DNA of 64,000 nucleotides from Halobiforma lacisalsi AJ5 (GTDB taxonomy: Archaea > Halobacteriota > Halobacteria > Halobacteriales > Natrialbaceae): NCBI RefSeq assembly GCF_000226975.2, contig NZ_CP019285.1, forward strand, positions 1,302,001 through 1,366,000, read 5' to 3'. Shown one piece after another: positions 7,885 to 58,934 of this stretch. A program made the translations under genes and the position numbers. The notes beneath the pieces are model-generated. The model was given only the letters and a program-made list of their open reading frames with translations. It had not been told where the DNA came from and ran no database searches. Within the stretch, counting starts at the first letter, position 1; every line of letters begins with the position of its first letter.

Positions 7885-7929
7885 CGTTTTTGTACCATTC
7901 TAGCCTCTCATACCGTCGGATCGAACCGT

Positions 7930-8410
7930 TCGTCGATTGATCCTACGAGGCGATCAGACAGTAGTTTCATCGGCTGAAACACTTCTTGGGGTCGGACTGC
8001 CGAGATCGCCGAGAAGTCACCGTCGATGTGACGAAAGTCGAAATCGGCGGCGACGAGCACTACGTTTGGGCTGCGTCGATTGTGACACACTTGAAGTTTT
8101 TGCCGTTGAGGCCTTTCCCGGTCGATCGAGCCTCGCTGCACTCCTCTTTTTGAAAGACGTTCTCGAACGGTGCCCCGGTCGCCCGCTGGTGCGGGCCGAC
8201 CGTGACTCATAATACGACTGGCCGCTCGAACTCTTAGACTGCGAATACGAGCATGAAACCTGGGGAAATCGGTCGCTCATCAAGGCGAGGTTCGATATCT
8301 TCAAATATCGAATCAGACGCTTCTACCACCGATTTCCCTTTCACTGCACCGCCACCTCAACCAGATCGTGGCTCACAGCCTTCGCCGCTCTCCACAATAC
8401 GACGCTCTAA
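7930..8410 (+). pseudogene. Decayed DDE transposase (second copy)
   Basis: Coding-like pieces run in two frames. TVDVTKVEIGGDEHYVWAAS is in one frame near 8010-8070. The next frame carries LEVFAVEAFPGRSSLAALLF and then PLVRADRDS, a stop at 8210-8212, then YDWPLELLDCEYEHETWGNR and SLIKARFDIFKYRIRRFYHR to a stop at 8408-8410. One frameshift and one in-frame stop therefore inactivate it. The D...D...E spacing and the motif order suit a haloarchaeal IS transposase; the family is not settled. The 3' 200 bp is duplicated at 3565-3761. Confidence 0.7.
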
Positions 8411-8533
8411 CTTTGATATTCTGGCCGTGTTGAATCACTAAACGATGGTGGAACGGTCTACCAAATCAACGAAGAGAAAACGGAAGGGTCTCTAATCCAG
8501 ATCTCCCGCGACGTTTTACACTTCAGGAGGTGT

Positions 8534-9315
8534 TCAGGAGAGTGTTAGCGGTGTACTCTCGGCCTTATGTTTTGAATACCAGTCTCTGGCCCACGTAACT
8601 GCGGCCCTATCCTTAGAATCGATGATACCACGAACAACACCAATATCGTCGTGAATAACGACAAGAACATGTTCGATGGGTTCTGTAATCACGACGACCC
8701 CCATCGGAATTTCACCAGAGTACGAATAAGCGTCGAAATTCCCGGTGTTGATGAGGGTTTTGAATTTGTCACTGAGTTTCGTTTGTATGTGTTCAGTCGC
8801 CTCTCTTCCGAAGACAAACTCAGCATCCAGTCGGTTCACTCTCGTCTGAGTCAAATACGTCTCAACCATAGGCGAGAAAATAGTCGGCACGACACCACTA
8901 ATCTTGGTCGCCTCAGAGACTTGTTCTTCAAGATATTCGTACACAAGGTCTGGTCTCGTTTCCCCGATCACACGTGTCGTTGCATCGCGAGCGACGGACG
9001 GATCAAGAACCGTTCCAATCTCCTGTCTCGTTTCAAGTAATCGCTTCGATTCTGCAAACGTCCGGACGATTTCATCGGTTCGCTCATACTGTGTATAGAC
9101 GACTTCGCCGAACGTTGTCGGTACATACATACCATCCTGTTTTTTGACTAGATCGTGATCTTCGAGTTGTTTGAGCCACGGTAAACCGTCGACTGTGAGG
9201 CGTCTACCTCGTCGACCAGTTGGTTTTGATAAGCCGGGCCATCGATGAGTCGTTTGAATATCGACGACCGTTTGTGGAGGACCATGTAGGCGGCGTGCGC
9301 TTTCTCCGTATCCAT
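8534..9315 (-). pseudogene. Frameshifted HTH transcriptional regulator (FilR1/DUF1724-like)
   Basis: The ATG at 9315 opens MDTEKAHAAYMVLHKRSSIF, followed by a winged-helix segment (LVDEVDASQSTVYRG). One missing base near 9175 then throws the frame off to a stop. Adding one base gives GLKQLEDHDLVKKQDGMYVP, which joins exactly to the long frame ending at 8534. The restored protein is about 260 residues: an N-terminal wHTH and a C-terminal ligand-type domain (FSPMVETYLTQTRVNRLDAE, then GVVVITEPIEHVLVVIHDD). This layout matches haloarchaeal HTH regulators with a FilR1-type domain. The 198-residue C-terminal part could still be translated from 9130 but would lack the DNA-binding domain. Confidence 0.75.
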
Positions 9316-9564
9316 AATTCTATGTATTGTGAAAATTCACTTATAGCTACTGGAGATAACGATAAGAGATAACTAACACAGTGGTATTCAATATGGCATA
9401 GTCAAGCCAGATAACGTACGACATTCGCACTCTGTGTGCATAATCAACAGGTGAAGCGACGGAAAAGAAACCACGTGTTGTCGAATACCCAATCGATAGT
9501 AATGAGTTATACTTTCACTCCGGTAGCGTATACTTTTTATTCGAACTCAGGAAAGTATGGGGTA

Positions 9565-44418: not shown

Positions 44419-45546
44419 ATGACCGACCGGTACGACGTCATCGTTCTGGGAGTCGGCGGCATGGGCAGTGCCGCCGTCGCTCACCTTGCCGACCGCGGCG
44501 CTGACGTCCTCGGCCTCGAGCGGTACGACATCCCCCACGGCTACGGCTCCTCGCACGGCCGGACGCGGATCTTCCGGCTCGCCTACGGCGAGGATCCCGC
44601 GTACGTTCCGTTGCTCCGTCGAGCCGAGGAACTGTGGGAAGACCTCGAGGCCGACCACGACGGCCGACTGCTGTACCGGACCGGATCGATCGACGCCGGC
44701 CCGACCGACTCCGACTTCGTCGCGACCTCGGAGCGATCCTGCGAGGAACACGACCTCGAGTACGAACGGCTCTCGAGCGAGGAACTGTCGGACCGCCACC
44801 CGGGGTACGACCTCCCGGCGGACTACGAGGCGATCTACCAGCCCGACGGCGGGTTCCTGGTCCCCGAGGAGTGTATCGTGGCCCACGTCGAGCGCGCCCA
44901 TCGCGAGGGGGCGACGGTCCGGGCCCGCGAACGGGTCGTCGACTGGTCGCCGATCGCCGACGGCGTCCGCGTCGAGACCGACTACGACGCCTACGAGGCC
45001 GACTCGCTCGTGATCGCCGCGGGCGCGTGGGCCTCCCGTTTCGTGGACGCCCTCGAGGGCGTCGTCGTCCCCGAGCGACAGGTCGTGACCTGGCTCCAGC
45101 CCGACCGGCCCGAACAGTTCGGGCCCGATCGGTTCCCCGTCTGGAACCTCGAGACGCCCGACGGACGGTTCTACGGCTTCCCCGTCCACGACCTGCCGGG
45201 GTTCAAGTTCGGCCGATACCACCACCGCGAGGAGACCGTCGATCCCGACGCCTTCGAGCGGGAGCCGACCCAGGCAGACGAACGGCTCCTGCGGGAGTTC
45301 GCCGAGGAGTACTTCCCGGCCGGTGCGGGGCCGACGATGCGCATGGAGACCTGCCTGTTCTCGAATACGCCGGACGAAGACTTCGTACTCGACACGCTAC
45401 CTGACCACCCGCAGGTCACCGTCGGTGCTGGCTTCTCCGGACACGGGTTCAAGTTCGCCAGCGTCGTCGGCGAGATCCTCGCCGATCTCGCGCTCGAGGG
45501 TGAGACCGACCACGACATCGGAATGTTTACGCTGGACCGGTTCTAG
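44419..45546 (+). CDS. solA: N-methyl amino acid oxidase (monomeric sarcosine oxidase/SolA family)
   Basis: 375 residues from the ATG at 44419. FAD-binding Rossmann motif VIVLGVGGMGSAAVAHLADR at the N-terminus. The family motif GSSHGRTRIFR follows, and C-terminally METCLFSNTPDEDFVLDTLP contains the cysteine that binds FAD covalently in monomeric sarcosine oxidase. GAGFSGHGFKFA completes the FAD site. It oxidises N-methyl amino acids to give formaldehyde and hydrogen peroxide. Its stop codon overlaps the stop of the convergent gene by 4 bp (CTAG at 45543-45546). Confidence 0.88.
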   Translation: MTDRYDVIVLGVGGMGSAAVAHLADRGADVLGLERYDIPHGYGSSHGRTRIFRLAYGEDPAYVPLLRRAEELWEDLEADHDGRLLYRTGSIDAGPTDSDFVATSERSCEEHDLEYERLSSEELSDRHPGYDLPADYEAIYQPDGGFLVPEECIVAHVERAHREGATVRARERVVDWSPIADGVRVETDYDAYEADSLVIAAGAWASRFVDALEGVVVPERQVVTWLQPDRPEQFGPDRFPVWNLETPDGRFYGFPVHDLPGFKFGRYHHREETVDPDAFEREPTQADERLLREFAEEYFPAGAGPTMRMETCLFSNTPDEDFVLDTLPDHPQVTVGAGFSGHGFKFASVVGEILADLALEGETDHDIGMFTLDRF

Positions 45547-47147
45547 CCGTCGACTTTCGCTTCGCTCTCGTCGCGGTTTTCACCGTCTAGATCGTCGGCA
45601 TCAGCCTCGAGGACGCCCCCGGACGCTTCCGCCTCACCGGCTGTGAGTTTCGAATCGAGCAGCGCTCGGAGACGGTCGGCGTACTCCCGAATCGCGCTCC
45701 GTTGGTCGGCCGCCTCTTCGTCCGCGTCCGTTCGTCCGTCGTCCCCGTTTCCGCCGCCGGTCGCTCGAGCGAAGACGAGTTCGGGATCCTCGGTGAGGTC
45801 CTCGGCAGCCTCCGAATCGGCCTCGTCGCCGACTTCCTCGGTGTCCATCGGCGGGTTCTCTCCTCGTTCTTGATCCTGTTCCCCCTCTTCTTTCCCTTCG
45901 CTCCCGACGTCGCTGCCCACCGCCTCGAGCGACGGCGGCTCGAAAACGTAGGTCGTCCCCCGGTTGCGGACGAGGTACCGTTCGCTCCGCCGGTCGAAAA
46001 CGACGGCGGCCCCGACGTCGATCCCGAGTTGTGCGAGTTCCGCGAGGCTCTCGACCGTCGCGTACCCGGGTGCTGGTTCGTCGCCCGCGGAGCGGTGGTC
46101 GTCGGCCCCCCGTTCGACGAACTCGAACCCGGAGTCGGGGTTCGGGTCCGGGTCGTCCGCGGCTCCGTCCCCGCTCTCGCCCGTCCGGGCGGAGTCGAAC
46201 TCGAGTTCCGAGGGCGGAAGCCGGACCCTGGTGACGACCGCCGCGAACCGCTCGCGATCCTCGTGGTAGGCCAGCCACTCCCGCTCGGTCGGTGTCGGCT
46301 CCGGGTATTGCCACGAGGCGAGCGCCAGGCCGGCGAGCCCTACCGATCCGAGGACCAGCAACAGTGGTCCGCCGACCGTCCGCGTCGGCCCGACGGTCGC
46401 CGGGACGACCACCGTCTCGTACTCCTCGCCGTGGTCCTCCTGGTACCCCACTTCGTCGTCGACCGAGTACGTGCTACCGTCGTACTCGATGTCGACCGCG
46501 TAGCCGTCGCTCGCGGCCCGGTACTCGCCCTCGATTTCGCCTTCGATCTCCCGGTCGATCGCGAGGTAGATCTCCGTCGTACCGGGGCTGGCCCCGAGGT
46601 CGCTCTCGATCTCGTCGATCTCGGCCGCGACCTCGGGCACGTCGACGGCGAACGCGGCGGTGACGTCCTCGCCCGGCGCGACGTCGGGTTCGCTCGCCGA
46701 CGCGAGTTCCTCCCGCTGGCTCCAGTAGACCGTCTCGGTCTCGGGATCGACGGCCCGGTAGACGAGGTCGATCGTCACGTTGACTTCCACGTTCCGGGCG
46801 CTGTCGGCCTCGTATCCCCCGACGAACTCACCCTCGAGTTCCGGGGTGATCGCCGTATAGTACAGCGGTTCGTTCTCGAGGACGGTTCCGTTCGCGTGGA
46901 CGGGCGTCGACTCGGTTACGGTCGCCCCGTGGGAGAGCTCCCCCGTGGCGGTCCAGGCGGGCTCGAGTCGCTGCTCCGTCTTCTCGTCCGGAGCGGCGTA
47001 CGCACCGTAGGTCACCCACGCGCCGATCAGAACGAGCGCGACGGCGACGACGATGAGAGCCGTCCGGTACTCCGCGAGCAGCGCGCGGAACTTCAATCGC
47101 CTGGCGGTCCCCTCCGTCGGTGTCGCGTCGTCGGTGTCCGTCTGCAT
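45543..47147 (-). CDS. DUF5305-family membrane protein of the fibre locus
   Basis: 534 residues from the ATG at 47147 (MQTDTDDATPTEGTARRLKF). One membrane segment near 28-50 (TALIVVAVALVLIGAWVTYG), an extracellular domain to about 265 (GELSHGATVTESTPVHANGT, LYYTAITPELEGEFVGGYEA), a second membrane segment (GGPLLLVLGSVGLAGLALAS) and a cytoplasmic acidic part of about 240 residues. DUF5305 proteins in archaea commonly accompany a signal peptidase and DUF1102 proteins, as here: the signal peptidase ends 2 bp before this start. Confidence 0.83.
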   Translation of the reverse strand: MQTDTDDATPTEGTARRLKFRALLAEYRTALIVVAVALVLIGAWVTYGAYAAPDEKTEQRLEPAWTATGELSHGATVTESTPVHANGTVLENEPLYYTAITPELEGEFVGGYEADSARNVEVNVTIDLVYRAVDPETETVYWSQREELASASEPDVAPGEDVTAAFAVDVPEVAAEIDEIESDLGASPGTTEIYLAIDREIEGEIEGEYRAASDGYAVDIEYDGSTYSVDDEVGYQEDHGEEYETVVVPATVGPTRTVGGPLLLVLGSVGLAGLALASWQYPEPTPTEREWLAYHEDRERFAAVVTRVRLPPSELEFDSARTGESGDGAADDPDPNPDSGFEFVERGADDHRSAGDEPAPGYATVESLAELAQLGIDVGAAVVFDRRSERYLVRNRGTTYVFEPPSLEAVGSDVGSEGKEEGEQDQERGENPPMDTEEVGDEADSEAAEDLTEDPELVFARATGGGNGDDGRTDADEEAADQRSAIREYADRLRALLDSKLTAGEAEASGGVLEADADDLDGENRDESEAKVDG

Positions 47148-47149
47148 GG

Positions 47150-48358
47150 TCAGGTGTTCTCCCGCGGTGTCCGCGAGTACGTCGTATCGGTTCCTCGCCG
47201 ATGCTGCCGCCGATCCGTCGCCCGTCGCCGTCGCGTCCGCTCCCGGCGGGCTCGCGGGTCGCCGGGCCCCAGCAGGGCGTGCCCGAGGAGGTAGACGCCG
47301 CCCCCGAGCAGAGAGACGACGGCGACGAACGGGAGCCAGGGGTGGAGGGCGTACAGTGCGTCGAGCACCGGCAGCGGGAGGACGTACAGGTAGCGGTGTT
47401 CGGTGACGTAGGTCGGGTAGTAGCCGGTCTCGTCGGGTGCCGTGATCGAAACGGTCGTTTCGGCGGTCTCCCTGGGCCCGACGACCGTCGGCCCCCGCTC
47501 GGTGTCGACCCCCTGCCCGCCGGGCTCGAGATAGGTGACGACCGGGACGAACCCGCCGTTTCCGATCGCGTACGGGATCTCGGCGGTCGTCCCGCGTTCG
47601 ATCACCAGCGGCCGATCGGAGTCGAACTCCGCGCTGACGACGTCGTAGGAGTGGGTGCCGGCGGGCGCGACCATCGCCGCCGTGGCGGCGACGACGATCA
47701 GCAGGGCGAACGCCCCCGCGAGCAGCCGTGGATCGACGCCCACCTCCTCGCCACGGCCGCGGGATCGGTCCGGTGAGGAGCCGGAATCGGGGCGGCGTCG
47801 CTCCCGGATCGTCTCGACGGCATAGAGGACGAGCGACACGACCAGCAGCATGTACGCGAGCCCCGTCGTCCCGAGGAACGCCCGGAGGCCGAACGTGACC
47901 GCGAGCCACCGCTGGACGCGCTCGAGGGCCTCGCCGATCCCCATCACGGCGGTCCCGAGGCTCGGGATCGTGACCACGTCGCCGTTCACCTGGAGGGCGG
48001 TGGCGACGATCTGGCCGTCCTGGACGAGCGGCTCGCCGCTGTCCTGGTCGGTAAACGGGTTCGCGTCCCCGCGGGTGACGTACCCCCGGTCGGTCGCCTC
48101 GACGATCCGGTGAGTCGTCAGTCCGCCCCCCTCGATCTCTTCGGCCTCGAAGACGACGACGTCGCCGACCTCCGGTTCGCCCGCCAGTTCGCTGGGCACC
48201 GCGACGAACCCGTCGCCGGTCTCGATCGTCGGCTCCATGCTCCCGGTCTCGACGAACCCGAGCAGGATCGGCTGGCCGAGCAACTGGCCGGCCAGCAACG
48301 CGACGAGCACGATGGCTACGAGTCCCTGGCCCCCACGACTCACCCCCCGTCGGATCAT
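47150..48358 (-). CDS. Signal peptidase I of the archaeal/SipW type, extended
   Basis: 402 residues. The peptidase domain is in the first 140: catalytic Ser40 in VETGSMEPT, His83 in TTHRIV and Asp98 in TRGDAN, which replace the Ser-Lys pair of bacterial enzymes. The remaining 260 residues add two or three membrane segments (LAYMLLVVSLVLYAV, LLAGAFALLIVVAATAAM, WLPFVAVVSLLGGGVYLL) and an extracellular domain (GTTAEIPYAIGNGGFVPVVT). Housekeeping haloarchaeal signal peptidases are shorter and lack these. It probably processes the neighbouring secreted DUF1102 proteins, as SipW does for TasA. Confidence 0.88.
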   Translation of the reverse strand: MIRRGVSRGGQGLVAIVLVALLAGQLLGQPILLGFVETGSMEPTIETGDGFVAVPSELAGEPEVGDVVVFEAEEIEGGGLTTHRIVEATDRGYVTRGDANPFTDQDSGEPLVQDGQIVATALQVNGDVVTIPSLGTAVMGIGEALERVQRWLAVTFGLRAFLGTTGLAYMLLVVSLVLYAVETIRERRRPDSGSSPDRSRGRGEEVGVDPRLLAGAFALLIVVAATAAMVAPAGTHSYDVVSAEFDSDRPLVIERGTTAEIPYAIGNGGFVPVVTYLEPGGQGVDTERGPTVVGPRETAETTVSITAPDETGYYPTYVTEHRYLYVLPLPVLDALYALHPWLPFVAVVSLLGGGVYLLGHALLGPGDPRARRERTRRRRATDRRQHRRGTDTTYSRTPRENT

Positions 48359-48428
48359 TCCCAGATCGGATCAATCACGTTGTGTCATTTGAATTTTAGG
48401 GTATCTGATCTGTATTGCCTCCGATAGC

Positions 48429-49697
48429 TCACGCCCGCGTTCGAACGAAGCGGACGCCGAGCAAGGCAACGATGAACCCGAGACCGACGGCACCCAGCGC
48501 CAGGAGGGGCATCCCGTCGGCCGGTCCGGACTCCTCGCGGTCCTCGTTTGATTTGTCGGATCCGTCTCCGTCTGGGCCCCGGTCATCGGGGTCGTCCCCG
48601 AGAGTCGTCTCGCCGAGATCCGATTTCTCCCCCTCGAGTGCGACGACGTACTCCGCGGTCGGGTCCGCGGGGATCACGTACTCGAGCGTCGACTCGGTCC
48701 CGGCGACCTGCTCGATCTCGCCGTCGGTCCAGGTCTTCCCGTCGGCTCGCCAAACGGTGACCCCGGTTCCGTCGGTTCCCTTGCGATCGAGCCGCGACCG
48801 GTCGACGACGAGGCGGTAGGAAACGTCCTCGAGAGTGCCGTCCGGCGCGCCTTCGAGGGCGACGGCACCGACCGGTTCGACGCCGTGTTCGCTCCGGAGG
48901 CGTTCGAACCGTGCGTCCTCGAGCCGTTTCTCGGTCGCGACCGTGAACGAAGCCTCGTCGCCCGCGAGCGTGACGTCGAAGCGGGCGAGGGAAACGCCGT
49001 CGCCGAGGGTCAACCCGTGCAGGTCGATCGATTCGGGCCCGCAGCCGTCGGCGTCCGCGATCGAAATCGCTCGCGTCGTCTTGTCCGAGCCCTCGACGGT
49101 TACGCTCGGTCCCGTCGGACAGGCGACCGTCGTGTCGGACTCGGCGTCGGAGTCGGTCTCGTCGTCCTCGTCCTCGTCCCCGTCGGGTACTTTCCCGTGA
49201 ATCGCGATTTCGCGTATCAAAACGTCCGTCGCCTCCTGGCCGTGCGAGTCCACGGTGAACCCGACGTCGATCGACTCGTAGGGCTCGAGCGTCGCGTTGT
49301 TTTCCATCCCTTCGATCGAACTCGAGCCCGGGCCGTCGCCGTCCGAGCGATAGAAGGTGACGTTGGCCGACTCGTGCTCGAGCCACACGTGCGCGTAGTC
49401 GTCTCCTGTATAGTTGAGCGTGAACACGTCGTCTACTCCGGTGATCGCGTCGGCCGGGACGCCGTCGCCCTCGACGGCGTCGTTGCCCGCGGTCAGGTCG
49501 ACCACGAGTTGCTCCTCGTCGTCCAGGTGAGCGTACGCGCCGTTCGGGCCGTCGTGCGGTTCGGCGGTGATCCGCTCACCGATGTCGTCGTAGCCGCCGG
49601 TCCCGGGTCCGCTCCCGCCGGTGGTGGCGACGACGAGCGCGAGGAGACAGAGGACGGCGATTCCGGCGGCGGCCCGTCGGGTCATGGGTACGGCCAC
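48429..49697 (-). CDS. DUF1102-family secreted protein with C-terminal membrane anchor
   Basis: 422 residues. N-terminal signal (MTRRAAAGIAVLCLLALVVA), then a DUF1102-type domain (PNGAYAHLDDEEQLVVDLTA, FYRSDGDGPGSSSIEGMENN). A second beta domain spans 200-355, an acidic linker follows, and a C-terminal membrane segment with a basic tail (LLALGAVGLGFIVALLGVRF VRTRA). It could be the anchored base of a surface fibre. It ends 70 bp before the signal-peptidase gene. The first ATG at 49697 or the one at 49685 may be the start. Confidence 0.78.
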   Translation of the reverse strand: MAVPMTRRAAAGIAVLCLLALVVATTGGSGPGTGGYDDIGERITAEPHDGPNGAYAHLDDEEQLVVDLTAGNDAVEGDGVPADAITGVDDVFTLNYTGDDYAHVWLEHESANVTFYRSDGDGPGSSSIEGMENNATLEPYESIDVGFTVDSHGQEATDVLIREIAIHGKVPDGDEDEDDETDSDAESDTTVACPTGPSVTVEGSDKTTRAISIADADGCGPESIDLHGLTLGDGVSLARFDVTLAGDEASFTVATEKRLEDARFERLRSEHGVEPVGAVALEGAPDGTLEDVSYRLVVDRSRLDRKGTDGTGVTVWRADGKTWTDGEIEQVAGTESTLEYVIPADPTAEYVVALEGEKSDLGETTLGDDPDDRGPDGDGSDKSNEDREESGPADGMPLLALGAVGLGFIVALLGVRFVRTRA

Positions 49698-50331
49698 CTC
49701 GCGCGGGAGTCAGTATCGGCGTCCATGTCGGCGTCGGAGTCTCGAGTCGGCATTGGCGATCGTGATCGTGTTCTCGTATCGGAACCGGTATCGGCGGGCC
49801 TCCGTCGGGACCGGCGCGGAACGCCGCGCAGTGTCGTCGACGTGGTGGGATGCGTGGTGTGTCGATCGTGACTGCGTTCACCGGACCGCGTGTCGCTCGA
49901 CACGTTCGGGTTCGGTGACCGAGCCGGCTCGCGCCGTCTCCCGGCGCGAGCCGTCCCGGCGCTGTGCAGGCCCCCACTCCCCCAATCCCTGGCGGATGTA
50001 GTGGGGTTCGGCGGCGATCGGTCGCCGCCGGGGAACGCGACGGGGTTCGACCGTGGTGGTGGACACATCGGAGCGAGCGCCGCGACGCGGCCGCGAACGT
50101 GGCGGGTGAGTGAACGGGTGATCGATCGCGGCCGCGTCGGGAACCGCCTCGAGGAGCCCCCTCCGCTCGAGGCGGGCGGCGTTCGTACCGTCGCGTTCCC
50201 GCTCGAGGGAAGATCGGCTAGCGCTATTGTAATACGGGTGTTGACTGGGTTTCAACGGGAGTCAACGAGGGTATCGATGGTAGTATATTGGAAATTGAAA
50301 CGAGATTTCTGAGGGACAAATAGAAAGTGTA
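49698..50331. other. 634-bp region with conserved promoter motif
   Basis: No convincing gene. The 12-mer TATTGTAATACG at 50225-50236 is identical to the copy at 51695. If it drives the operon that begins at 49697, the leader would be over 500 bases. This is longer than the other two leaders (about 115 bases), so an undetected small gene or a regulatory leader is possible. Confidence 0.45.
50225..50236 (-). promoter_or_regulatory. Fibre-locus promoter motif, copy 1
   Basis: TATTGTAATACG (plus strand). Two of three copies are identical and the third differs by one base. It lies upstream of the 49697/signal peptidase/DUF5305 unit. Confidence 0.55.
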
Positions 50332-50910
50332 CTAAGAACTGCTCTTGTCACTTGGAAATACATCAGGATACTTTTCAGAATCCTCAGATACTGCGATGAT
50401 GGTAAATTCAGTACTGATTTTTTGCAGTGGGACATCTCCAATCTGGATTCGTAATCCGAGGTCGATTGCTGCCCCTGGAGACTTAATTACAGTCGAAGGA
50501 TTGGATTCCGTAAGAGCCGACTTTCTGCCTTTCTCAATTAGTTCTATTTCCTTTAGATCAGACCCATCATATTCGCCAAACATGACAATATCATCGGACC
50601 CTCTATTCCTTGCTTGGAATAAGTCCGTGAACTCGTAGATGGTGTTCGGGCTAACCCCATCACCGGTATCTTCGAACGTTCCATTTGGGGGAGTTACCTC
50701 CTCGTCAAAACGGAAGTGCAATAATCCTCCCTCAGTCTTTGTGAAGTTGTTAGATATATCGTCTAACTCCAAATATGCGTACTGATCACTTTCGATCTCG
50801 AATGTAACCCCACGGTTTGCTTCCACTGAACTGAAGGCACTACTACCTACGACTATTGACCCCCCCAATGAGATTGCTGCAGCGCCAGTAATGAAGCGTC
50901 TTCTCTTCAT
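50332..50910 (-). CDS. DUF1102-family Tat-exported protein (fibre-subunit-like)
   Basis: 192 residues. Starts MKRRRFITGAAAISLGGSIV, a twin-arginine signal, then SSAFSSVEANRGVTFEIESD, where the F-S-S-V-E-A-(D/N)-R motif seen in three proteins of this locus begins the mature fold. The rest is beta-rich (YAYLELDDISNNFTKTEGGL) and ends SEDSEKYPDVFPSDKSSS; the SEKYPD motif recurs in the next protein. GC is clearly lower than the neighbours, suggesting acquisition or relaxed selection. It begins 27 bp after the stop of the gene upstream. TasA-like donor-strand fibres are the nearest functional model. Confidence 0.75.
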   Translation of the reverse strand: MKRRRFITGAAAISLGGSIVVGSSAFSSVEANRGVTFEIESDQYAYLELDDISNNFTKTEGGLLHFRFDEEVTPPNGTFEDTGDGVSPNTIYEFTDLFQARNRGSDDIVMFGEYDGSDLKEIELIEKGRKSALTESNPSTVIKSPGAAIDLGLRIQIGDVPLQKISTEFTIIAVSEDSEKYPDVFPSDKSSS

Positions 50911-50937
50911 AAAAACAGGTTTGGTTTATTTCACTCC

Positions 50938-51576
50938 CTAGTTATCTGAGCTAATCGTGGGGACATGAGAGCCCGCAGTAGACGGCCCTGCGTCAGGGTA
51001 CTTTTCGCTGTCATCCGTCACTGCGTAAATTGTGATGTTGGCGTCGCCGATGTCTTCGCCGATATCGTCTTCGCTCACATTACGGAAAAGCCCGGACACC
51101 TTTACGCTGGCCCCCGATTCCAGAATCACACCTTGATTACCGCCTTCTCGAGGCCCACTATTTTGTTTTAGAGTCGCATTCTTCCCTACGTCTTGAGAGT
51201 GGAGGAAAAAACTCAGTGATCCATCACCACTGAGAGCGGTGTCAACTTCCGATACGTCCATCGTGATCAGGATTTCCTTGGTACCCTGGTTCTTATATAT
51301 GAGCTCTGGCCCAAACCCAGTGTCCGCATTGGCATTAAGACCAGTTCCAGAGGCATCAGAGGTATTGTCGAAGTTCAGTTCGACGACTCCACCGCTCGTT
51401 TGTGCGAAGGTTGCATCGGGGGTAGGTTCCATCCCGAAGTATGCGTTCTCGTCGCTAGCAACATTCAGTGAAACCGTTCGATCAGCTTCTACACTCGAGA
51501 ACGCGCCCGTACCGACGGCCGCAGCTGCTCCCGATGCCAGTGCTCCCATTCCGATGACGAATTTGCGTCGTTGCAT
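50938..51576 (-). CDS. DUF1102-family Tat-exported protein (fibre-subunit-like)
   Basis: 212 residues from the ATG at 51576 (MQRRKFVIGMGALASGAAAA), a twin-arginine signal. The mature part begins TGAFSSVEADRTVSLNVASD, with a beta-sandwich-like body and a C-terminal AVTDDSEKYPDAGPSTAGSH. A start at 51612 would add 12 residues before the signal. It is the first gene of a two-gene unit with 50332 and has the conserved promoter and hairpin about 115 bp upstream. Predicted to be a major subunit, by analogy with TasA/AbpA. Confidence 0.78.
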   Translation of the reverse strand: MQRRKFVIGMGALASGAAAAVGTGAFSSVEADRTVSLNVASDENAYFGMEPTPDATFAQTSGGVVELNFDNTSDASGTGLNANADTGFGPELIYKNQGTKEILITMDVSEVDTALSGDGSLSFFLHSQDVGKNATLKQNSGPREGGNQGVILESGASVKVSGLFRNVSEDDIGEDIGDANITIYAVTDDSEKYPDAGPSTAGSHVPTISSDN

Positions 51577-51649
51577 GGTTGGATTCTCCGTTGTGTGTTC
51601 GCGGGCGGCCACACCTCCACACCGACCGACTCGAGCTCGTCGTCCGCCC

Positions 51650-51668
51650 GATCCCCACCGCGGGGATC
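51650..51668 (-). promoter_or_regulatory. 5'-leader hairpin of the DUF1102 gene
   Basis: GATCCCC-ACCGC-GGGGATC, 7-bp stem and 5-base loop, 75-90 bases before the start codon. The same hairpin, flanked by GGGATCACA, occurs at 55592-55608 before the fibre-locus gene at 54463. Location inside the predicted transcript suggests an RNA role, for example stability. Confidence 0.55.
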
Positions 51669-51694
51669 ACATCTCGTCCGTCCCCGGCAAGGGA

Positions 51695-51706
51695 TATTGT
51701 AATACG
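51695..51706 (-). promoter_or_regulatory. Fibre-locus promoter motif, copy 2
   Basis: TATTGTAATACG (plus strand), 119 bp before the ATG at 51576. Identical to copy 1. A further shared block, GTCAACACGTTACTGACC-like, lies about 40 bp farther upstream (near 51737-51754), and a similar one occurs near copy 3. Confidence 0.6.
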
Positions 51707-52086
51707 GTCGTGGAGTTAATTTCAAGAACAGGTAGCGACAGTCAACACGTTACTGACCGAATCGAACCGGAGGTCCGCGACCCGTTGACCCCTCGAGGAC
51801 CGAACTCAACGACCGGTGTCCGACCCTCCGACTTCGGTTGACTTCAGTTCAACCGCCTCGAGAACGACGGCCACAAAACGTATCAGGGAGTTTGAACCGC
51901 TCTCAAGTCGGCCTTGAACGACCGGTACACCCGGCTCACGTCGGAGAATTCTCCTTTTGCTCGAGTAGTCCGTCGTTCGCTATGGAGCGCGAGCCGAGAA
52001 CAGTATCACTCTTCGGACTGGTTAGTTTCAACGAACTGTTGACTGCATAACTATTTTATCGGGGAACGTGATACGGCTTATCTGAT

Positions 52087-52782
52087 ATGGGGGTAACGCA
52101 AGCAGGCTCGACCGGGGAGACGGACGCATCGGAGCGGGACGCGGCCGATGGGGTGGCCGACGACGGACTCTCGTCTTCGTCTTCGACCGACTCTCCCGCC
52201 GTTGCAGACCCGTCCGAGGAAACGCTCACCGAGGACGAACTCTTCGAGATCCTCTCGAATCGGCGACGACGACACGTCCTCCACGAACTCATGCAGGAGG
52301 ACGGCGGCATCGACATTGGAACGCTCTCGGAGGAGATCGCCGCCTACGAGGACGGCCTCGAGCTCCACGAGGTCTCGAGCAGCGATCGCAAGCGCGTGTA
52401 TACGGCCCTCCACCAGTCCCATCTCCCGAAGATGGACGAGGCCGGCGTCCTCGAGTTCAACAAGGACCGGGGGACCGTCGAACCGACGCCGGCGCTCGAG
52501 GACGTCGAGATCTACATGGACGTCGTGCGCGGACGCGAGATCCCATGGAGCGACTACTACATCGGACTGACGGCGCTGTCCGGGATTCTGCTCGGGGTGA
52601 CCGCGCTGGGGCCCGGCCCGCTCGCCGCACTGACGCCGTACGCCTGGGGGGTGTTCGTCCTCGTCTCGTTCGGCGTCTCGGCGATGGCCCACCGGTACTA
52701 CGCCCGTCGGAACCGGCTCGGGATCGCGGACGATCCGCCGGACGTCGCGCTCGAGTATCAGGGCCCTGATACGGAGGGGTAA
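52087..52782 (+). CDS. Membrane-anchored winged-helix regulator (DUF7344-like)
   Basis: 231 residues. Acidic N-terminal 45 residues, then a wHTH: LTEDELFEILSNRRRRHVLH, ISTLSEEIA-like helix and KRVYTALHQSHLPKMDEAGV with the conserved H-L-P-K-(L/M)-(D/E) wing. Two membrane segments follow (YYIGLTALSGILLGVTALGP and YAWGVFVLVSFGVSAMAHRY). This architecture is common in haloarchaea. It is the only regulator in the fibre locus and is divergent from the main DUF1102 genes, so it may bind the shared promoter motif. Confidence 0.83.
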   Translation: MGVTQAGSTGETDASERDAADGVADDGLSSSSSTDSPAVADPSEETLTEDELFEILSNRRRRHVLHELMQEDGGIDIGTLSEEIAAYEDGLELHEVSSSDRKRVYTALHQSHLPKMDEAGVLEFNKDRGTVEPTPALEDVEIYMDVVRGREIPWSDYYIGLTALSGILLGVTALGPGPLAALTPYAWGVFVLVSFGVSAMAHRYYARRNRLGIADDPPDVALEYQGPDTEG

Positions 52783-52889
52783 CTCGTGGCCGCTGACGAC
52801 CGACGCATCTCGCGAGTAGCTCGGCCGATCTCCCGTTCGACGGTCGTCGGGATCGCGATGGAACGACCGGACGGTAATCGAACGATCCC

Positions 52890-53945
52890 ATGAGACGGAA
52901 CCGAAAGAAAACGAGGACGAGACGCGCCACGCTGGCGATGCTCGCCGGTTCGAGCGGACTGTTAGCCGTCGATACGCTCGGCTTCTCGAGCGTCGAGGCC
53001 GGGCGGGACGTCGAAATCGACGTCGTCGCCGACGCGGACGCGTATCTGGGGCTGGTCGAGACCGGCGAATCCGACGACGGCGTGGAGACGAGTGACCTCC
53101 TGTTCGGCGACGACTACGAGCGATTGCCGCTCGCGACGTTCGACGTAGTCAACCAGCTCACCGAGGAGGTCGCGGTCGAACTGGTACTCGGGGACGATCG
53201 GCTCAGGTTCCGGAGCGAGGACGGTACCGTAACCGGTGACGGCCGCCTCGTGCAGAATCTGGCCGTCGGTCAGTCCGTCGACGCTGGCATCGGTCTGGAT
53301 CTCCACTGTGACTGGGCGATCGTCGACGAGCCGATCACGACGTCGCTCGAGATCGAAGCCGACGGGGATTCGACATACATCACGGCCGAGCGGACGCTTA
53401 CCCTCCTTCCCGGGGTGTTGGCCGTGGCTCGCTTCAGTTCACCTCCCTTCCTGGATGGCTTGTTGATCGTCCGGAAACGGCGAAAGGGGGATACCGTTTG
53501 GATACTCGTCGAATGGATCTCCTGTTCGGACGGCAAACGGACTACCGTGGCCGAAATAGAAATATCGGACGACCTATTACCAAAGCTCCGCCTGAAATTC
53601 CCCCAAGAACACCACGGAAATAGCGGAGCTAATGCGAGAAGCGATACCGATACCAATACCAATTCCGGGTCCGGGTCCAAGTCCAATAGAGTATCCAAGT
53701 TGAACTCCGGCACGTCGTTCAAACCGGACCTCGCAACTGCAGACGACGTCGATGCCGAGTTCGACTTCGAGTCGCCGGAAACAGCTACCACAAACGAGTC
53801 TAACGGTGACAGAGCCCCCTCGAGTGAGGCAGCCAACACGTTCGTCCCCGTCCTCGAGATCAACCCGGATACATCGGCTCGAGGTTCGACGATACGAGAG
53901 ATCGAGACGATCGAGATCCGCAAGTCGGATCTCGAGGGCGAGTGA
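52890..53945 (+). CDS. DUF1102-family exported protein, long form
   Basis: 351 residues. Basic N-terminus with RTRRATLAMLAGSSGLLAVD, a twin-arginine-like signal, then LGFSSVEAGRDVEIDVVADA, the DUF1102 start seen in two neighbours. The DUF1102 body runs to about 190. The C-terminal 160 residues are a Ser/Asn/Asp/Lys-rich linker (TDTNTNSGSGSKSNRVSKLN) without clear homology. It is 107 bp after the regulator on the same strand, possibly co-transcribed. Confidence 0.75.
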   Translation: MRRNRKKTRTRRATLAMLAGSSGLLAVDTLGFSSVEAGRDVEIDVVADADAYLGLVETGESDDGVETSDLLFGDDYERLPLATFDVVNQLTEEVAVELVLGDDRLRFRSEDGTVTGDGRLVQNLAVGQSVDAGIGLDLHCDWAIVDEPITTSLEIEADGDSTYITAERTLTLLPGVLAVARFSSPPFLDGLLIVRKRRKGDTVWILVEWISCSDGKRTTVAEIEISDDLLPKLRLKFPQEHHGNSGANARSDTDTNTNSGSGSKSNRVSKLNSGTSFKPDLATADDVDAEFDFESPETATTNESNGDRAPSSEAANTFVPVLEINPDTSARGSTIREIETIEIRKSDLEGE

Positions 53946-54062
53946 GTTCTATTCCTGAACCCGACGGCGGTTTTACTCGGATTCTGTGTTTTCCACTCCG
54001 ACAGGCGTGTAGAACACACGCGCTATGTGGTGGTCCAAAAAATGGATCAGCAAGACGTGGAA

Positions 54063-54461
54063 TCAGTCGTCGTCCGTGACGACTTCCCCCGTCACGTTTC
54101 CACCGATGTCGGCCGATGGGTCGGGACCGGGATCGGCTGGCGGGCCGGGTGAGGGGGACGGCGATGGTCCCGGCGATGGACCTGGAGACGGTCGTCGATC
54201 GTCGTCTTCTTTTTCGTCATCTTTCTTCTCGTCCGGATCTTTCTTTTCGTCGTCCGGATCAGGGTCGTCGACTGTATCTTTCCCGTCGTCCTCGTCAGGC
54301 TCTTTCTCTCCATCGTCCGGTTCTCGTTCACCGGAATCCGGTTCCGAATCCGGATCATCTCGAGGCGGATCCGGATTCTCATTCGGTTCCGGTCCTGGAT
54401 CCTCAGACGAGCACCCGGCGAGGAACACGACGAGCCCTGCGAGCAGGGTTCGTCGGTTCAT
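54063..54461 (-). CDS. Asp/Pro-rich lipoprotein
   Basis: 132 residues from the ATG at 54461 (MNRRTLLAGLVVFLAGCSSE): a signal with RR and a lipobox (LAGC). The mature part is nearly all Asp, Glu, Pro, Lys and Ser (DDEKKDPDEKKDDEKEDDDR, then PSPGPSPGPSPSPSPGPPAD), ending DIGGNVTGEVVTDDD. A long extended spacer, suited to anchoring something outside the S-layer. It starts 1 bp after the stop of the upstream gene. Confidence 0.75.
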   Translation of the reverse strand: MNRRTLLAGLVVFLAGCSSEDPGPEPNENPDPPRDDPDSEPDSGEREPDDGEKEPDEDDGKDTVDDPDPDDEKKDPDEKKDDEKEDDDRRPSPGPSPGPSPSPSPGPPADPGPDPSADIGGNVTGEVVTDDD

Positions 54462-54462
54462 T

Positions 54463-55521
54463 TCACTCCACGTTGTAGTAGACGGTGCCGGTCGATCCGC
54501 CACGACCGTTACCACCGTCGCCACCGAACGCCTCGAGGTTCACCTCATCTGGCGTTCCAGGGTTGGCGAGGCCCGACGGGAGCTCGTCGAGCGCGCTCCA
54601 GTCGACCGTGAACGTGTACGTGTGCTGATCGTCACTCTCTTCGGCGGTGAAGCCGGTCACGTTCTCACCATCTACGGTGCTACGGTCGGGGTTGTCGGCC
54701 GATCCCTGATTGTACTTGATGTAGCCTTCCGACACGTTCGTATCGTCGACACCGCCAGGGCCGTGGAACCCGAAGCGGTAGTCGTCGCCCGGATCTTCGT
54801 TTGCACCGTAGTCGACGACGACTTCTTGGAAGTACTCGTCCGGATTGTCCGGCCATCCGGCGTAGACCTCTTCGTCGAGTTCGATCTTGAAGTGAGTCGT
54901 CTCACCGAAGTCTGCGTAGAGCGTAATCCAGCCGTCGTCGTTGCTGGCGATCTTCTCGTAGGTGACGACTTCGCCGTCGACGTCTCCACCAGAGTCGGCT
55001 TCTGAGTCGATGTTGTTCATGACGACCTCGAGCGTGTCTTCAGTCGAGCCAGTCACCTCGTTGTCTGCCGAGGTCGTAACGATCACTTCGAGCTTGACGG
55101 TGACGTCTTTCTCCGTCTGACTACCGTCATCGGTTGCTTCGAAGTCTGCTGCCTCGAGCTCCGAGTGATCGAGGACGTCTCCCTCGAGCGTCTCGCCGAG
55201 CTCGATATCACTCTGACTCTGACCGCTGACGTCACTCCGGGTTGCGGAGTCGATTGCTTCCGTTACGCCATCGTATTCGATCTGGAGTTCGACCGTGGCC
55301 TCCGTCGCAGGGTTCTCGAGACCCTCGTAGGAGAACGTGACGTTCGTTGCTTCGATCTCGATTGCATCGAGGGTACCGTCATCGCTTTCCCCGTTGATTT
55401 CCGATGCGTTGAGGGTGTGGCTTCCGACTTCTGCGACTGCGCCTTGCGACAGGACCGCTGCTCCGCCGATAGTTGCTGCGCCGATGCTCCCTGCGCCGAT
55501 GAGGAAGTTACGTCGATCCAT
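54463..55521 (-). CDS. Tat-exported beta-rich protein of the fibre locus
   Basis: 352 residues from the ATG at 55521 (MDRRNFLIGAGSIGAATIGG), a twin-arginine signal. Two regions follow: SHTLNASEINGESDDGTLDA to LEVIVTTSADNEVTGSTEDT (beta-sandwich, Thr/Glu-rich) and a C-terminal domain NDDGWITLYADFGETTHFKI to STGTVYYNVE with an aromatic-rich end. It does not show the DUF1102 F-S-S-V-E motif but shares the promoter and leader hairpin with the DUF1102 gene at 50938. Possibly another fibre or matrix component. Confidence 0.75.
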   Translation of the reverse strand: MDRRNFLIGAGSIGAATIGGAAVLSQGAVAEVGSHTLNASEINGESDDGTLDAIEIEATNVTFSYEGLENPATEATVELQIEYDGVTEAIDSATRSDVSGQSQSDIELGETLEGDVLDHSELEAADFEATDDGSQTEKDVTVKLEVIVTTSADNEVTGSTEDTLEVVMNNIDSEADSGGDVDGEVVTYEKIASNDDGWITLYADFGETTHFKIELDEEVYAGWPDNPDEYFQEVVVDYGANEDPGDDYRFGFHGPGGVDDTNVSEGYIKYNQGSADNPDRSTVDGENVTGFTAEESDDQHTYTFTVDWSALDELPSGLANPGTPDEVNLEAFGGDGGNGRGGSTGTVYYNVE

Positions 55522-55591
55522 GGTAGTTCCTAACGTCGTTTTGTGTCTGAGGAGAACGACCACCCGTTAGTCCAGATCGTCGTTCACCCGA

Positions 55592-55608
55592 ATCCCCGCC
55601 ACGGGGAT
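55592..55608 (-). promoter_or_regulatory. 5'-leader hairpin, second copy
   Basis: ATCCCCG-CCA-CGGGGAT, 7-bp stem, 70-90 bases before the ATG at 55521. Its flanks (GGGGATCACA on the plus strand) match those of the hairpin at 51650-51668, which lies at the same distance from its gene. Confidence 0.55.
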
Positions 55609-55635
55609 CACAGGTCATCGGTGGACGGAACGGAG

Positions 55636-55647
55636 TATTGTAGTACG
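55636..55647 (-). promoter_or_regulatory. Fibre-locus promoter motif, copy 3
   Basis: TATTGTAGTACG (plus strand), 11 of 12 identical to the other two copies, 115 bp before the ATG at 55521. GATACGTTATTGACC near 55718-55732 resembles the extra upstream block seen near copy 2. Confidence 0.55.
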
Positions 55648-55842
55648 CTCGTTGACGGGAATTCAGGATCCAGTGGTGTGTCCTCTGCTCCAGATTGAAC
55701 GAAGTAGAAAGAAGTCGATACGTTATTGACCCGGGCTCGATCGGAGTCAACCGACGATATCTACGCTTCTAGATCCGCTTTTGATCAGTCAACCGACACA
55801 CTACGATACGTATCGAAGGGGTTGAACGCCACTATCCTCGAG

Positions 55843-56784
55843 TCACGCGTCCATTATTTCCTCGGCGAACCGCCTCATCGCCGTCTCCGAATCCTCGTTC
55901 TCGAGCGAGACGATCACGTGATCCACGCCGTACGCCTCGAGCCGGTCGAAGTAGTCCCGGAACCACTCGAGGCTGGCCCGATACCCCAAATGAAGTGGCT
56001 CCGGCTCCGCCTCCGTCTCGGGGTCGTCGGCCAGTTCGACGCGCACCGCCATCGCGTAGGGCTTGTCATCGGCATCGGCGCGCCACTGCTCTACGTAGTC
56101 CTCGAGCGTCCGTTCGGGCAGGTAGTAGAACAGCCAGCCGTCCCCGTGTTCGGCGATCCACTCCCGCGACTGCCGGGCGTTCCCCGTGGGCAGCATCGGA
56201 ATCGTGTCGGTCGTCGGCTTCGGGACGACGTCGAGGTCGCCCTCGAGGCGGCCCCATTCGCCCTCGAGTTCGGGGTACTCCTCGCGCCACAGTGTCCGCA
56301 CAGCCTCGAACCGGTCCCGGAACAGGTCGCCCCGGTCCTCGCGGTCGACGTCGAAAGCCGGGAACTCGGGGTCCCGGTCGCCCGAGGCGACGCCGAGCAC
56401 GAGCCGACCGTCCGACAGCCGGTCGACGGTGGCCGCCGATTTCGCGACGTGGATCGGGTGTCGCAGCGTGAGGACGATGCTCGCGGTCCCGAGGGCGATC
56501 TCCTCGGTCCCGGCCGCGACGTGGGAGAGCCAGGGCCAGGGGTCGAACGTCTGGCCCGCGTCGCCGAACTTCGGCCAGTCGGTGGGGACGTCCCGGGCCC
56601 AGAGGCCGGCGAACCCGAGCGATTCCGCGAGACGCGCGAGTTTCAGTTCCGCCTCGATATCGGGCGTCGAGCGGTTCGTTCCCGTCAGGGGGAACCCGGT
56701 CCCGAAGGTCAGCCCGTCGCGTTCGAAGAGGCGTCGATAGCCTGCGTTCCGGCAATCGGTCGCGGTCCCGTTCGCGGTCGACAT
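55843..56784 (-). CDS. Luciferase-like monooxygenase (F420- or flavin-dependent)
   Basis: 313 residues of the bacterial luciferase-like (LLM) fold: LARLAESLGFAGLWARDVPT, EEIALGTASIVLTLRHPIHV, VDRLSDGRLVLGVASGDRDP and WIAEHGDGWLFYYLPERTLE are typical barrel strands and loops. In haloarchaea many such enzymes use coenzyme F420. The TIGR03571-type length fits. Substrate unknown. Gene is outside the fibre locus by orientation and spacing (about 200 bp). Confidence 0.85.
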   Translation of the reverse strand: MSTANGTATDCRNAGYRRLFERDGLTFGTGFPLTGTNRSTPDIEAELKLARLAESLGFAGLWARDVPTDWPKFGDAGQTFDPWPWLSHVAAGTEEIALGTASIVLTLRHPIHVAKSAATVDRLSDGRLVLGVASGDRDPEFPAFDVDREDRGDLFRDRFEAVRTLWREEYPELEGEWGRLEGDLDVVPKPTTDTIPMLPTGNARQSREWIAEHGDGWLFYYLPERTLEDYVEQWRADADDKPYAMAVRVELADDPETEAEPEPLHLGYRASLEWFRDYFDRLEAYGVDHVIVSLENEDSETAMRRFAEEIMDA

Positions 56785-56942
56785 TCGCTCGAGCTATCGG
56801 CTACGATTGTATGACGGTGACGGTCCCGGAACCGGCGGCCGGGGTCATGAGTCGACGCCGAACGCGAGAGAGAAAAGCGAACGGAAACTGCAAACCGCGG
56901 AAAACGGCCGAATCGTCGGTGCGACGGTTCGGCAGCTAGTTA

Positions 56943-56969
56943 GTCGTCAGTCGTCAGTCGTCAGTCGTC
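56943..56969. repeat. Heptamer tandem repeat at the aconitase stop codon
   Basis: Three full copies of GTCGTCA plus six bases of a fourth (plus strand). On the coding strand this is CGACTGA repeated, so TGA occurs every 7 bp and falls in each reading frame in turn. The first TGA is the aconitase stop. Two such heptamers also surround the arlI stop at 12622-12631. Confidence 0.8.
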
Positions 56970-58934
56970 GGCGGGCGCAGCGCCGCTGCCGCTCTCCTCG
57001 GCCTGTTCCTTCGTCCAGGCGAGCTTGCCGCCGGCTGCGAGGATGTCACGTTCGCGCTCGGAGGCGTCGAGCGTGGCGGTGTACTCCTCGTCGCCGACAC
57101 GAACCGTGAACTCCTCCTGCCCGGAGGTGACGGCGTCGTAGACGTCGTCGACGATCTCGACCTCGTCGCCCTGGTCGATATCCTCGTAGGTCTCCTCGTC
57201 GATCGTCAGGGGGACGATGCCGAAGTTGAAGAGGTTCGCGCGGTGGATCCGGGCGAAGCTCTGGGCGAGGACGGCCTCGATGCCGAGGTACATCGGACAC
57301 ATCGCGGCGTGTTCACGGGAGGATCCCTGGCCGTAGTTCTCGCCGGCCACGAGGACGCCGCCGTCGGCCTCCTTGGCGCGTTCGGCGAACGTGTCGTCGA
57401 CGCGGGAGAGGGTAAACTCGGAGAGCTTCTCGATGTTCGACCGGTACATCAGGATGTCCTGGGTCGCAGGGATGATGTGGTCGGTCGTGATGTTGTCCTC
57501 CATCTTGAGGAGGGCTTCACCCGCGATGTCCGAGCCGAGTTCGTCACGCAGCGGAACGTCGCCGATGTTGGGGCCCTTGACGAGTTCGTCGTCGGGGGCC
57601 TCGTCGGGCGTGATGAGGTCCGTCTTCGAGCCGTCGTACTCGTCGGGGAGCTCGATGCCGGGTGCCTCGAGGTCGCCGAGTTCGTCGGCCAGGTCGCGCG
57701 GGTCGACGATCTCGCCCTTGATCGCCGCAGCGGCGGCGACCTCCGGCGAGCAGAGGAAGACGTTGTCGTCCTCGATGCCGGAGCGACCCTCGAAGTTGCG
57801 GTTGAAGGTCCGCAGCGAGACGGAGTCGGAGGCGGGGACGTGACCGATGCCGATACACGCCCCGCAGGTCGCCTCGGAGAAGTTGACGCCGGCGGCCATC
57901 ATCTCCGCGACCCAGCCCTCGCGGGCGAGCATCTCGGAGGCCTGCTTGGAGCCGGGCGCGACGATCATCTCGGTGGTCGGGTTGACCTCGCGGCCCTCGA
58001 GCATCTTCGCGGCGGGGAGGATGTCCTCGTAGCCGCCGTTGGTACAGGAACCGACGATGACCTGGTCGACGTCCTGGCCAGCGACCTCGCTGACGGGGAC
58101 GACGTTGTCGGGCATCGACGGCTGGGCGATCAGCGGCTCCAGGTCGGAGAGGTCGACGACGATCTCGTCGTCGTACTCGGCGTCCTCGTCGGGCTGGAGT
58201 TCGGTGTACTCGTCGCCGCGGTCGAGGCGCTCGAGGTAGTCTTTGGTCTGCTCGTCGGTCGGGAAGATCGAGGAGGTCGCGCCGAGCTCGGTGCCCATGT
58301 TGGTGATGGTCATGCGCTCGGGCGCGGTGAGGCTCTCGACGCCGGGGCCGGTGTACTCGAGGATCTTGCCGACGCCGCCCTTCACGGACAGCCGGCGGAG
58401 AAGCTCGAGGATGACGTCCTTCGCGGTGGCCCACTCGGGGAGTTCGCCCTCGAGTCGGACGTTGACGATCTCGGGCATCTCGATGTAGTAGGGCGCGCCG
58501 CCCATGGCGACGGTGACGTCGATCCCGCCGGCACCGATCGCGAGCTGGCCGAGGCCGCCGGGCGTGGGTGTGTGAGAGTCCGAACCGAGCAGCGTCTTGC
58601 CGGGCGCCGCGAAGTTTTCGCGGTGGACGTTGTGACAGATGCCGTTGCCCGGACGAGAGAAGTATGCACCGTATTTGCCGGCCGCAGAACGCAGGAAGCG
58701 GTGGTCGTCCGTGTTCTTGAAGTCGAACTGGTAGGTCTGGTGGTCACAGTACTGGGCGGCGATTTCGGTCTGGACTTCGTCCAGTCCCATCGCCTCGAAC
58801 TGCAGCCACACCATCGTACCCGTCGTGTCCTGAGTGAGGACCTGGTCGATCTCGATACCGATTTCCTCGCCGGTCTCGAGTTCGCCGTCGACGAGGTGGT
58901 CGTCGAGAACCTTTTCGGTGAGAGTTTGTCCCAT
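56961..58934 (-). CDS. acnA: Aconitate hydratase
   Basis: 657 residues, the compact archaeal/AcnA-related form. Iron-sulfur ligands are in VGSCTNGGYED and ATCGACIGIGHVP. Substrate motifs include LGSDSHTPTPGGLGQ in the first third and GENYGQGSSREHAAM in the C-terminal swivelling domain. It isomerises citrate to isocitrate in the TCA cycle. Full length; monocistronic by spacing, and divergent from the dCTP deaminase/dUTPase gene downstream of 59177. Confidence 0.94.
   Translation of the reverse strand: MGQTLTEKVLDDHLVDGELETGEEIGIEIDQVLTQDTTGTMVWLQFEAMGLDEVQTEIAAQYCDHQTYQFDFKNTDDHRFLRSAAGKYGAYFSRPGNGICHNVHRENFAAPGKTLLGSDSHTPTPGGLGQLAIGAGGIDVTVAMGGAPYYIEMPEIVNVRLEGELPEWATAKDVILELLRRLSVKGGVGKILEYTGPGVESLTAPERMTITNMGTELGATSSIFPTDEQTKDYLERLDRGDEYTELQPDEDAEYDDEIVVDLSDLEPLIAQPSMPDNVVPVSEVAGQDVDQVIVGSCTNGGYEDILPAAKMLEGREVNPTTEMIVAPGSKQASEMLAREGWVAEMMAAGVNFSEATCGACIGIGHVPASDSVSLRTFNRNFEGRSGIEDDNVFLCSPEVAAAAAIKGEIVDPRDLADELGDLEAPGIELPDEYDGSKTDLITPDEAPDDELVKGPNIGDVPLRDELGSDIAGEALLKMEDNITTDHIIPATQDILMYRSNIEKLSEFTLSRVDDTFAERAKEADGGVLVAGENYGQGSSREHAAMCPMYLGIEAVLAQSFARIHRANLFNFGIVPLTIDEETYEDIDQGDEVEIVDDVYDAVTSGQEEFTVRVGDEEYTATLDASERERDILAAGGKLAWTKEQAEESGSGAAPADD

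Follow-up and report, generated by a model that had tools for sequence, protein, structure and literature searches.

Gene Content of the Locus

The DNA considered here, called the window below, is a stretch of 64,000 nucleotides from the haloarchaeon Halobiforma lacisalsi AJ5 of the family Natrialbaceae (contig NZ_CP019285.1, positions 1,302,001 to 1,366,000 of the forward strand). Its positions 45543 to 55521 hold nine genes which, judged by their homology, their synteny, a shared cis-element and the match of a predicted fold to a Tafi pilin of solved structure, very probably constitute a divergent Tat-fimbria (Taf, "tafi") cluster of the haloarchaeal type. The Tat-fimbria system itself is already known: the type was named in 2025, and PMC12687288, citing Galeva et al. 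(iScience 2025), presents it as thin filaments exported by the twin-arginine (Tat) pathway, with TafA as the core subunit.

An earlier note, made from the letters alone, had placed all nine genes correctly, except that the gene for the DUF5305 protein starts at 47147 and that for the lipoprotein at 54461, the longer open reading frames being upstream over-extensions. The genes, by position in the window, are as follows:

45543–47147, minus strand: DUF5305 membrane protein, encoded at the end of the operon D1-peptidase-DUF5305 (PF17231, 2.2e-46)
47150–48358, minus strand: extended SipW-like signal peptidase I (TIGR02228, 55.4 bits)
48429–49697, minus strand: D1, TafF-like, with a pilin-type domain, an N-terminal signal and a C-terminal transmembrane anchor (hhalign; alignment A4)
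50332–50910, minus strand: D2, second Tat-exported pilin (TafE, 37 bits; 9p0a pilin, E 2.7e-4)
50938–51576, minus strand: D3, first Tat-exported pilin and probably the major subunit (TafE, TafA, 9p0a, Foldseek)
52087–52782, plus strand: DUF7344 regulator of the winged-helix type, with transmembrane segments at its C-terminus, oriented divergently to the pilin genes (PF24035, 7.5e-28)
52890–53945, plus strand: D4, TafC-like and Tat-exported, with a pilin-type domain at its N-terminus, followed by a C-terminal part that is not lectin-like (TafC, 41.6 bits)
54063–54461, minus strand: lipo, Tat-type lipoprotein (MNRRTLLAGLVVFLAGC), 1 nt after tat (LPAM_1, E 0.009)
54463–55521, minus strand: tat, beta-rich protein of two domains, exported by Tat and a candidate accessory of the fimbriae

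The Pilins and the Other Subunits

The sole significant match of D3 in the PDB is 9p0a, "Structure of Natrinema sp. J7-2 Tafi pilus", found by sequence (E 3e-13) as well as by profile (E 2.9e-29). The predicted fold of D3 leads to the same structure, which ranks first in a Foldseek search with an E value of 1.4e-4 and is the only match below 0.001. Among the models for haloarchaeal Tat-fimbriae that NCBIfam has lately added (TafA, TafC, TafE and TafF), D3 matches TafE (63.5 bits) and TafA (37.2 bits), as D2 also does, and both models are matched by all 37 pilins of the family. The label DUF1102, which the earlier note had given to all four pilin-type proteins, fits less well: D1 (18.4) and D2 (19.0) stay under the gathering score of 22.2, and the model matches neither D3 nor D4; it does match 16 of the 37 family pilins.

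The motif F-S-S-V-E-A-(D/N/G)-R had been noticed earlier, and it indeed stands directly after a twin-arginine signal in three proteins, as FSSVEANR in D2, FSSVEADR in D3 and FSSVEAGR in D4. The signals themselves (MQRRKF, MKRRRF, RTRRAT) were recognized by eye, and their residues R3 and R4 are conserved over the family pilins. In the mature N-terminus F1 and R8 are invariant across 90 pilins, and the N-terminal 20 residues of D3 are modelled at a pLDDT of only 53–56; taken together, this is expected for a strand placed in the neighbouring subunit. The 9p0a sequence has 215 residues, 188 of which are modelled in the structure. If the 27 unmodelled residues are all N-terminal they end at GTGA, which fits the proposed cleavage site; the structure would then start at the phenylalanine of FSSVEADR, since it is at residue 3 of the chain that the precursor has its initiator methionine, a start that is derived from the lengths.

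Two further proteins extend the set of pilin-type subunits. In hhalign comparisons D1 matched the TafF family (E 4e-16) and the pilins (E 2.5e-19), although the NCBIfam profile scan of the locus proteins did not report it as a match to the TafF model; its C-terminal transmembrane segment suggests that D1 is probably the cell-anchoring subunit. D4 matched the TafC family (E 2.8e-14) and the pilins (E 7.7e-14), yet it does not contain the Laminin_G_3 domain of canonical TafC.

Several points weigh against the assignment of the locus to the Tat-fimbriae. The equivalog cut-offs of NCBIfam are widely missed, the best scores being 63.5 against 155 for TafE, 41.6 against 410 for TafC and 37.2 against 190 for TafA, so that the locus proteins are not filed as these equivalogs, and neither pilin clearly corresponds to TafA. 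The confidence of the D3 model is moderate (pLDDT 73.5) and its TM-score to 9p0a is only 0.44, possibly because an isolated chain was modelled without its partner strand. Finally, the filaments of this locus are predicted from its genes. The low Taf scores, together with a D4 devoid of the canonical lectin-like domain, lead us to regard the locus as a divergent variant of the Tat-fimbria clusters.

Peptidase, DUF5305 Protein and Regulator

The extended archaeal signal peptidase, the DUF5305 membrane protein and the membrane-anchored regulator, all three named in the earlier note, were recovered with profile models. The peptidase passes the cut-off of TIGR02228, the archaeal signal peptidase I model (51.85 bits), and does not reach that of the SipW model NF046067 (34.5 against 190 bits); its motifs GSMEP and TTHR point to a Ser/His dyad. 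It is the second of the two signal peptidase I matches in the genome, in which there is only one DUF5305 gene.

Conservation of the Cluster

The clusters found around TafA proteins that score over the cut-off contain a SipW-like peptidase, TafC, a DUF7344 regulator, TafA, TafE, TafF and DUF5305; in one representative (L189) TafA, TafC, TafE and TafF all exceed their cut-offs. Each member of this canonical core has a counterpart at the locus: the two Tat-signal pilins D3 and D2, the TafC-like D4, the TafF-like D1, the second SipW-like peptidase, and the DUF5305 and DUF7344 proteins, both of which belong to canonical clusters as well. The gene for the 9p0a pilin lies in a cluster (L104) composed of regulator, pilin, D1-type gene, peptidase and DUF5305.

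Relatives of D3 are present in 107 of 125 family genomes. All of the 25 family loci, which were chosen by a match to the pilin or to the control element so that the pilin count is given by construction, carry pilins and the peptidase, while the regulator and DUF5305 are each present in all but one (24 loci) and a TafC-like gene accompanies the pilins in 21, a D1-type gene in 11; L043 is the sole family locus without a DUF7344 regulator among its fimbrial genes. Class-wide, 61 of 72 named loci have the regulator, 51 the peptidase and 50 DUF5305, some of these loci ending at contig borders. Matches over the cut-off were obtained for DUF5305 in 94 of the 393 genomes from the phylum and for TafA in 22 of the 392 from the order. 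The earlier note had named two conditions that would refute its reading, and neither occurred: these families do occur together across haloarchaea, and the sole significant PDB match of the predicted fold is a solved Tafi pilus.

Pilin-type genes are multiplied at some loci. L117 from Halorubrum contains nine of them together with two DUF7344 regulators, and L146 and L148, both on the Haloarcula rara plasmid NZ_CP119786.1, carry pilin pairs of equal length and score, apparently a pilin locus duplicated on one plasmid.

It could be argued that the pilin-like proteins are secreted monomers that do not polymerise, e.g., proteins of the surface or of a biofilm matrix, the more so as many beta-sandwich proteins of haloarchaea are exported by Tat and fibres are predicted for this locus from its genes. 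We consider this quite improbable, given the homology to a solved pilus and the conserved content of the cluster, which includes an anchor and a peptidase; we infer instead that the products of the locus form fibres.

The Control Region

The following elements were recognized upstream of D1, D3 and tat:

50221–50235, minus strand: GTATTACAATA box upstream of D1, without a hairpin
50241–50255, unstranded: TTGA-N7-TCAA dyad upstream of D1
51650–51668, minus strand: hairpin GATCCCC-GCGGT-GGGGATC in the D3 leader
51691–51705, minus strand: promoter-like box GTATTACAATATCCC of D3, at a fixed spacing to the hairpin
51838–51852, unstranded: TTGACTTCAGTTCAA dyad, candidate operator
51892–51906, unstranded: TTGAACCGCTCTCAA dyad, candidate operator
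55592–55612, minus strand: second leader hairpin, upstream of tat
55632–55646, minus strand: second promoter-like box GTACTACAATACTCC, upstream of tat

The boxes have the core GTAYTACAATA in common, of which the 4.38 Mb genome contains four copies and the controls none. Three copies precede D3, D1 and tat, which bears out the shared promoter of the earlier note; the fourth lies in a distant region whose reverse strand, by inspection, appears to carry tryptophan synthase genes. With no mismatches allowed, the genome contains the hairpin TGATCCCCG-N4-GGGGAT twice, once before D3 and once before tat; its chance expectation in the window is 0.04, and the box together with the GATCCCC-N5-GGGGATC hairpin is found only in these two upstream regions. 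Among the matches listed, the composite element is present at 20 places in 18 of 125 family genomes and in none of the controls. Box and hairpin are separated by 21 nt in all 20 of these places, and the gene downstream is everywhere that of a twin-arginine pilin, except for the tat copy. In L040 (positions 7884–9335, Natrinema) each of two pilin genes is preceded by its own copy of box and hairpin. No Rfam family matched within positions 45000–57000.

The hairpin sequence is palindromic in DNA by construction and its covariation is not above that of shuffled alignments (149 of 500), so it might be read as a DNA operator rather than as a hairpin in the mRNA leader. This is rather unlikely: all 77 pair cells over 11 sequences are standard pairs, and the stem variants keep pairing mostly through G-U on the transcribed strand, whereby pairing in RNA is preserved and the symmetry of the DNA is broken. 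In addition, should the box be a TATA element, the hairpin sequence, always at the same distance downstream of it, would come to lie close to the 5' end of the mRNA. The leader hairpin that we favour refers to the short stem and not to the fold of the whole leader, since the 5' leader of D3 is no more stable than shuffled sequences (z 0.47); that of tat is more stable (z -4.05).

The TTGAC half-sites alone are mildly enriched in the upstream regions of D3 and D1, and for this reason the dyad with the seven-nucleotide spacer was used instead. Over 20 distinct loci, 20 TTGA-N7-TCAA dyads fall in the 8.9 kb between regulator and pilin genes, compared with 4 in 392 kb elsewhere, an enrichment of about 220-fold in a motif picked after viewing the same sequences, from loci that share ancestry, so that the binomial value should not be read as the probability of independent events. 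The dyads may be sites of the DUF7344 regulator.

The tat-lipo Pair

The box and hairpin shared with D3 make the tat-lipo pair probably a co-regulated fimbrial accessory unit. Against this, the pair could be an unrelated neighbour that gained the pilin promoter by local duplication: only two of the 25 family loci carry it, and homologues of tat elsewhere have other upstream regions. Such an origin is possible but doubtful. In L196, from another genus, tat (58% identity) and lipo keep their place beside the fimbrial locus, with the same 1-nt gap and their own copy of the leader element, and the C-domain of tat recurs in a protein from a Halorubrum megaplasmid that also gives a match to PF12389, the camelysin/TasA model. 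An accessory role in the fimbriae is therefore likely on this comparative evidence. The earlier note had counted both genes with the locus; they lie outside the conserved core but carry the pilin promoter element.

The megaplasmid protein (L203, 6098–7441; NZ_CP034941.1, Halorubrum ezzemoulense) lies near two vWA proteins and another protein of the SipW-dependent type. Homologues of the tat N-domain from other genera (L090, L093, L094, L096 and L097) have a different 5' region in common, CACTCACACGCAA ... GACGAGTGGC ... CCAGCGCCGGGCGTCGTACGGCGT. Plasmid searches yielded little, and a single-sequence fold of tat was left unused (pLDDT 39.6).

Comparison with Known Systems

With the tafi clusters the locus shares twin-arginine pilins with an FSSV-type mature start, TafC- and TafF-like subunits, and the SipW-like peptidase, DUF5305 and DUF7344 regulator in one cluster. 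It differs from them in its pilins, which lie far under the equivalog cut-offs and nearer to TafE than to TafA, in a D4 without Laminin_G_3, in a tandem pilin pair behind one promoter, and in the presence of tat-lipo, the hairpin leader and the dyad sites.

The earlier note had likened the locus to the TasA-SipW system and to the archaeal bundling pili (AbpA). As in the TasA-TapA-SipW system of Bacillus, a secreted beta-sandwich subunit is accompanied by its own SipW-type peptidase. The signals of TasA are of the Sec type, whereas those at the locus are twin-arginine signals, and PF12389 was matched by none of the nine locus proteins. The AbpA pilus of Pyrobaculum (7ueg) shows a weak similarity to the fold of D3, its chain 7ueg_A being ranked 16th by Foldseek (E 0.06, prob 0.77, TM 0.39); this match is not significant and a sequence match is absent. 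Since the Taf matches are far stronger in both sequence and fold, true membership in the TasA/camelysin or AbpA families, outside Taf, is very improbable. The likeness holds in kind, for a secreted-pilin locus with a SipW-like logic, the nearest known system being the haloarchaeal Tat-fimbriae.

In the literature searched, outside which the primary tafi paper lies, no description was found of this divergent Taf form, of its control element or of tat-lipo. What appears to be new is the promoter box with a hairpin at fixed spacing and the TTGA-N7-TCAA dyads.

Proposed Working of the Locus

In the model that we propose, D3, D2 and D4 would fold in the cytoplasm and leave the cell via the Tat pathway, after which the putative SipW-like peptidase would cut the signal at GTGA/FSSVEADR. 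The freed N-terminal strand would complete the beta-sandwich of the next subunit, and the pilins would polymerise in this way, with D4 as a minor or tip subunit; the base would be held by D1, through its pilin-type domain and C-terminal membrane anchor, and DUF5305 may aid assembly in the membrane. The DUF7344 membrane regulator would control the pilin, D1 and tat-lipo operons, possibly via the TTGA-N7-TCAA sites, the D3 and tat mRNAs would start with the conserved hairpin, and tat-lipo would supply an accessory surface protein and a lipoprotein. More tentatively, at somewhat less than an even chance, the Taf fimbriae of the family might form a regulon in which DUF7344 reads TTGA-N7-TCAA and drives hairpin-led mRNAs, including that of the previously undescribed tat-lipo as an interchangeable adhesin or anchor.

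The Tat-fimbriae are a newly named route to a surface fibre built from subunits that are exported already folded. A divergent Taf form is widespread in one haloarchaeal family, and all of its components are mapped at this locus, which also provides a control element open to testing and, in tat-lipo, a candidate accessory unit; through the paired promoter copies, membership in the fimbrial regulon can be tested directly.

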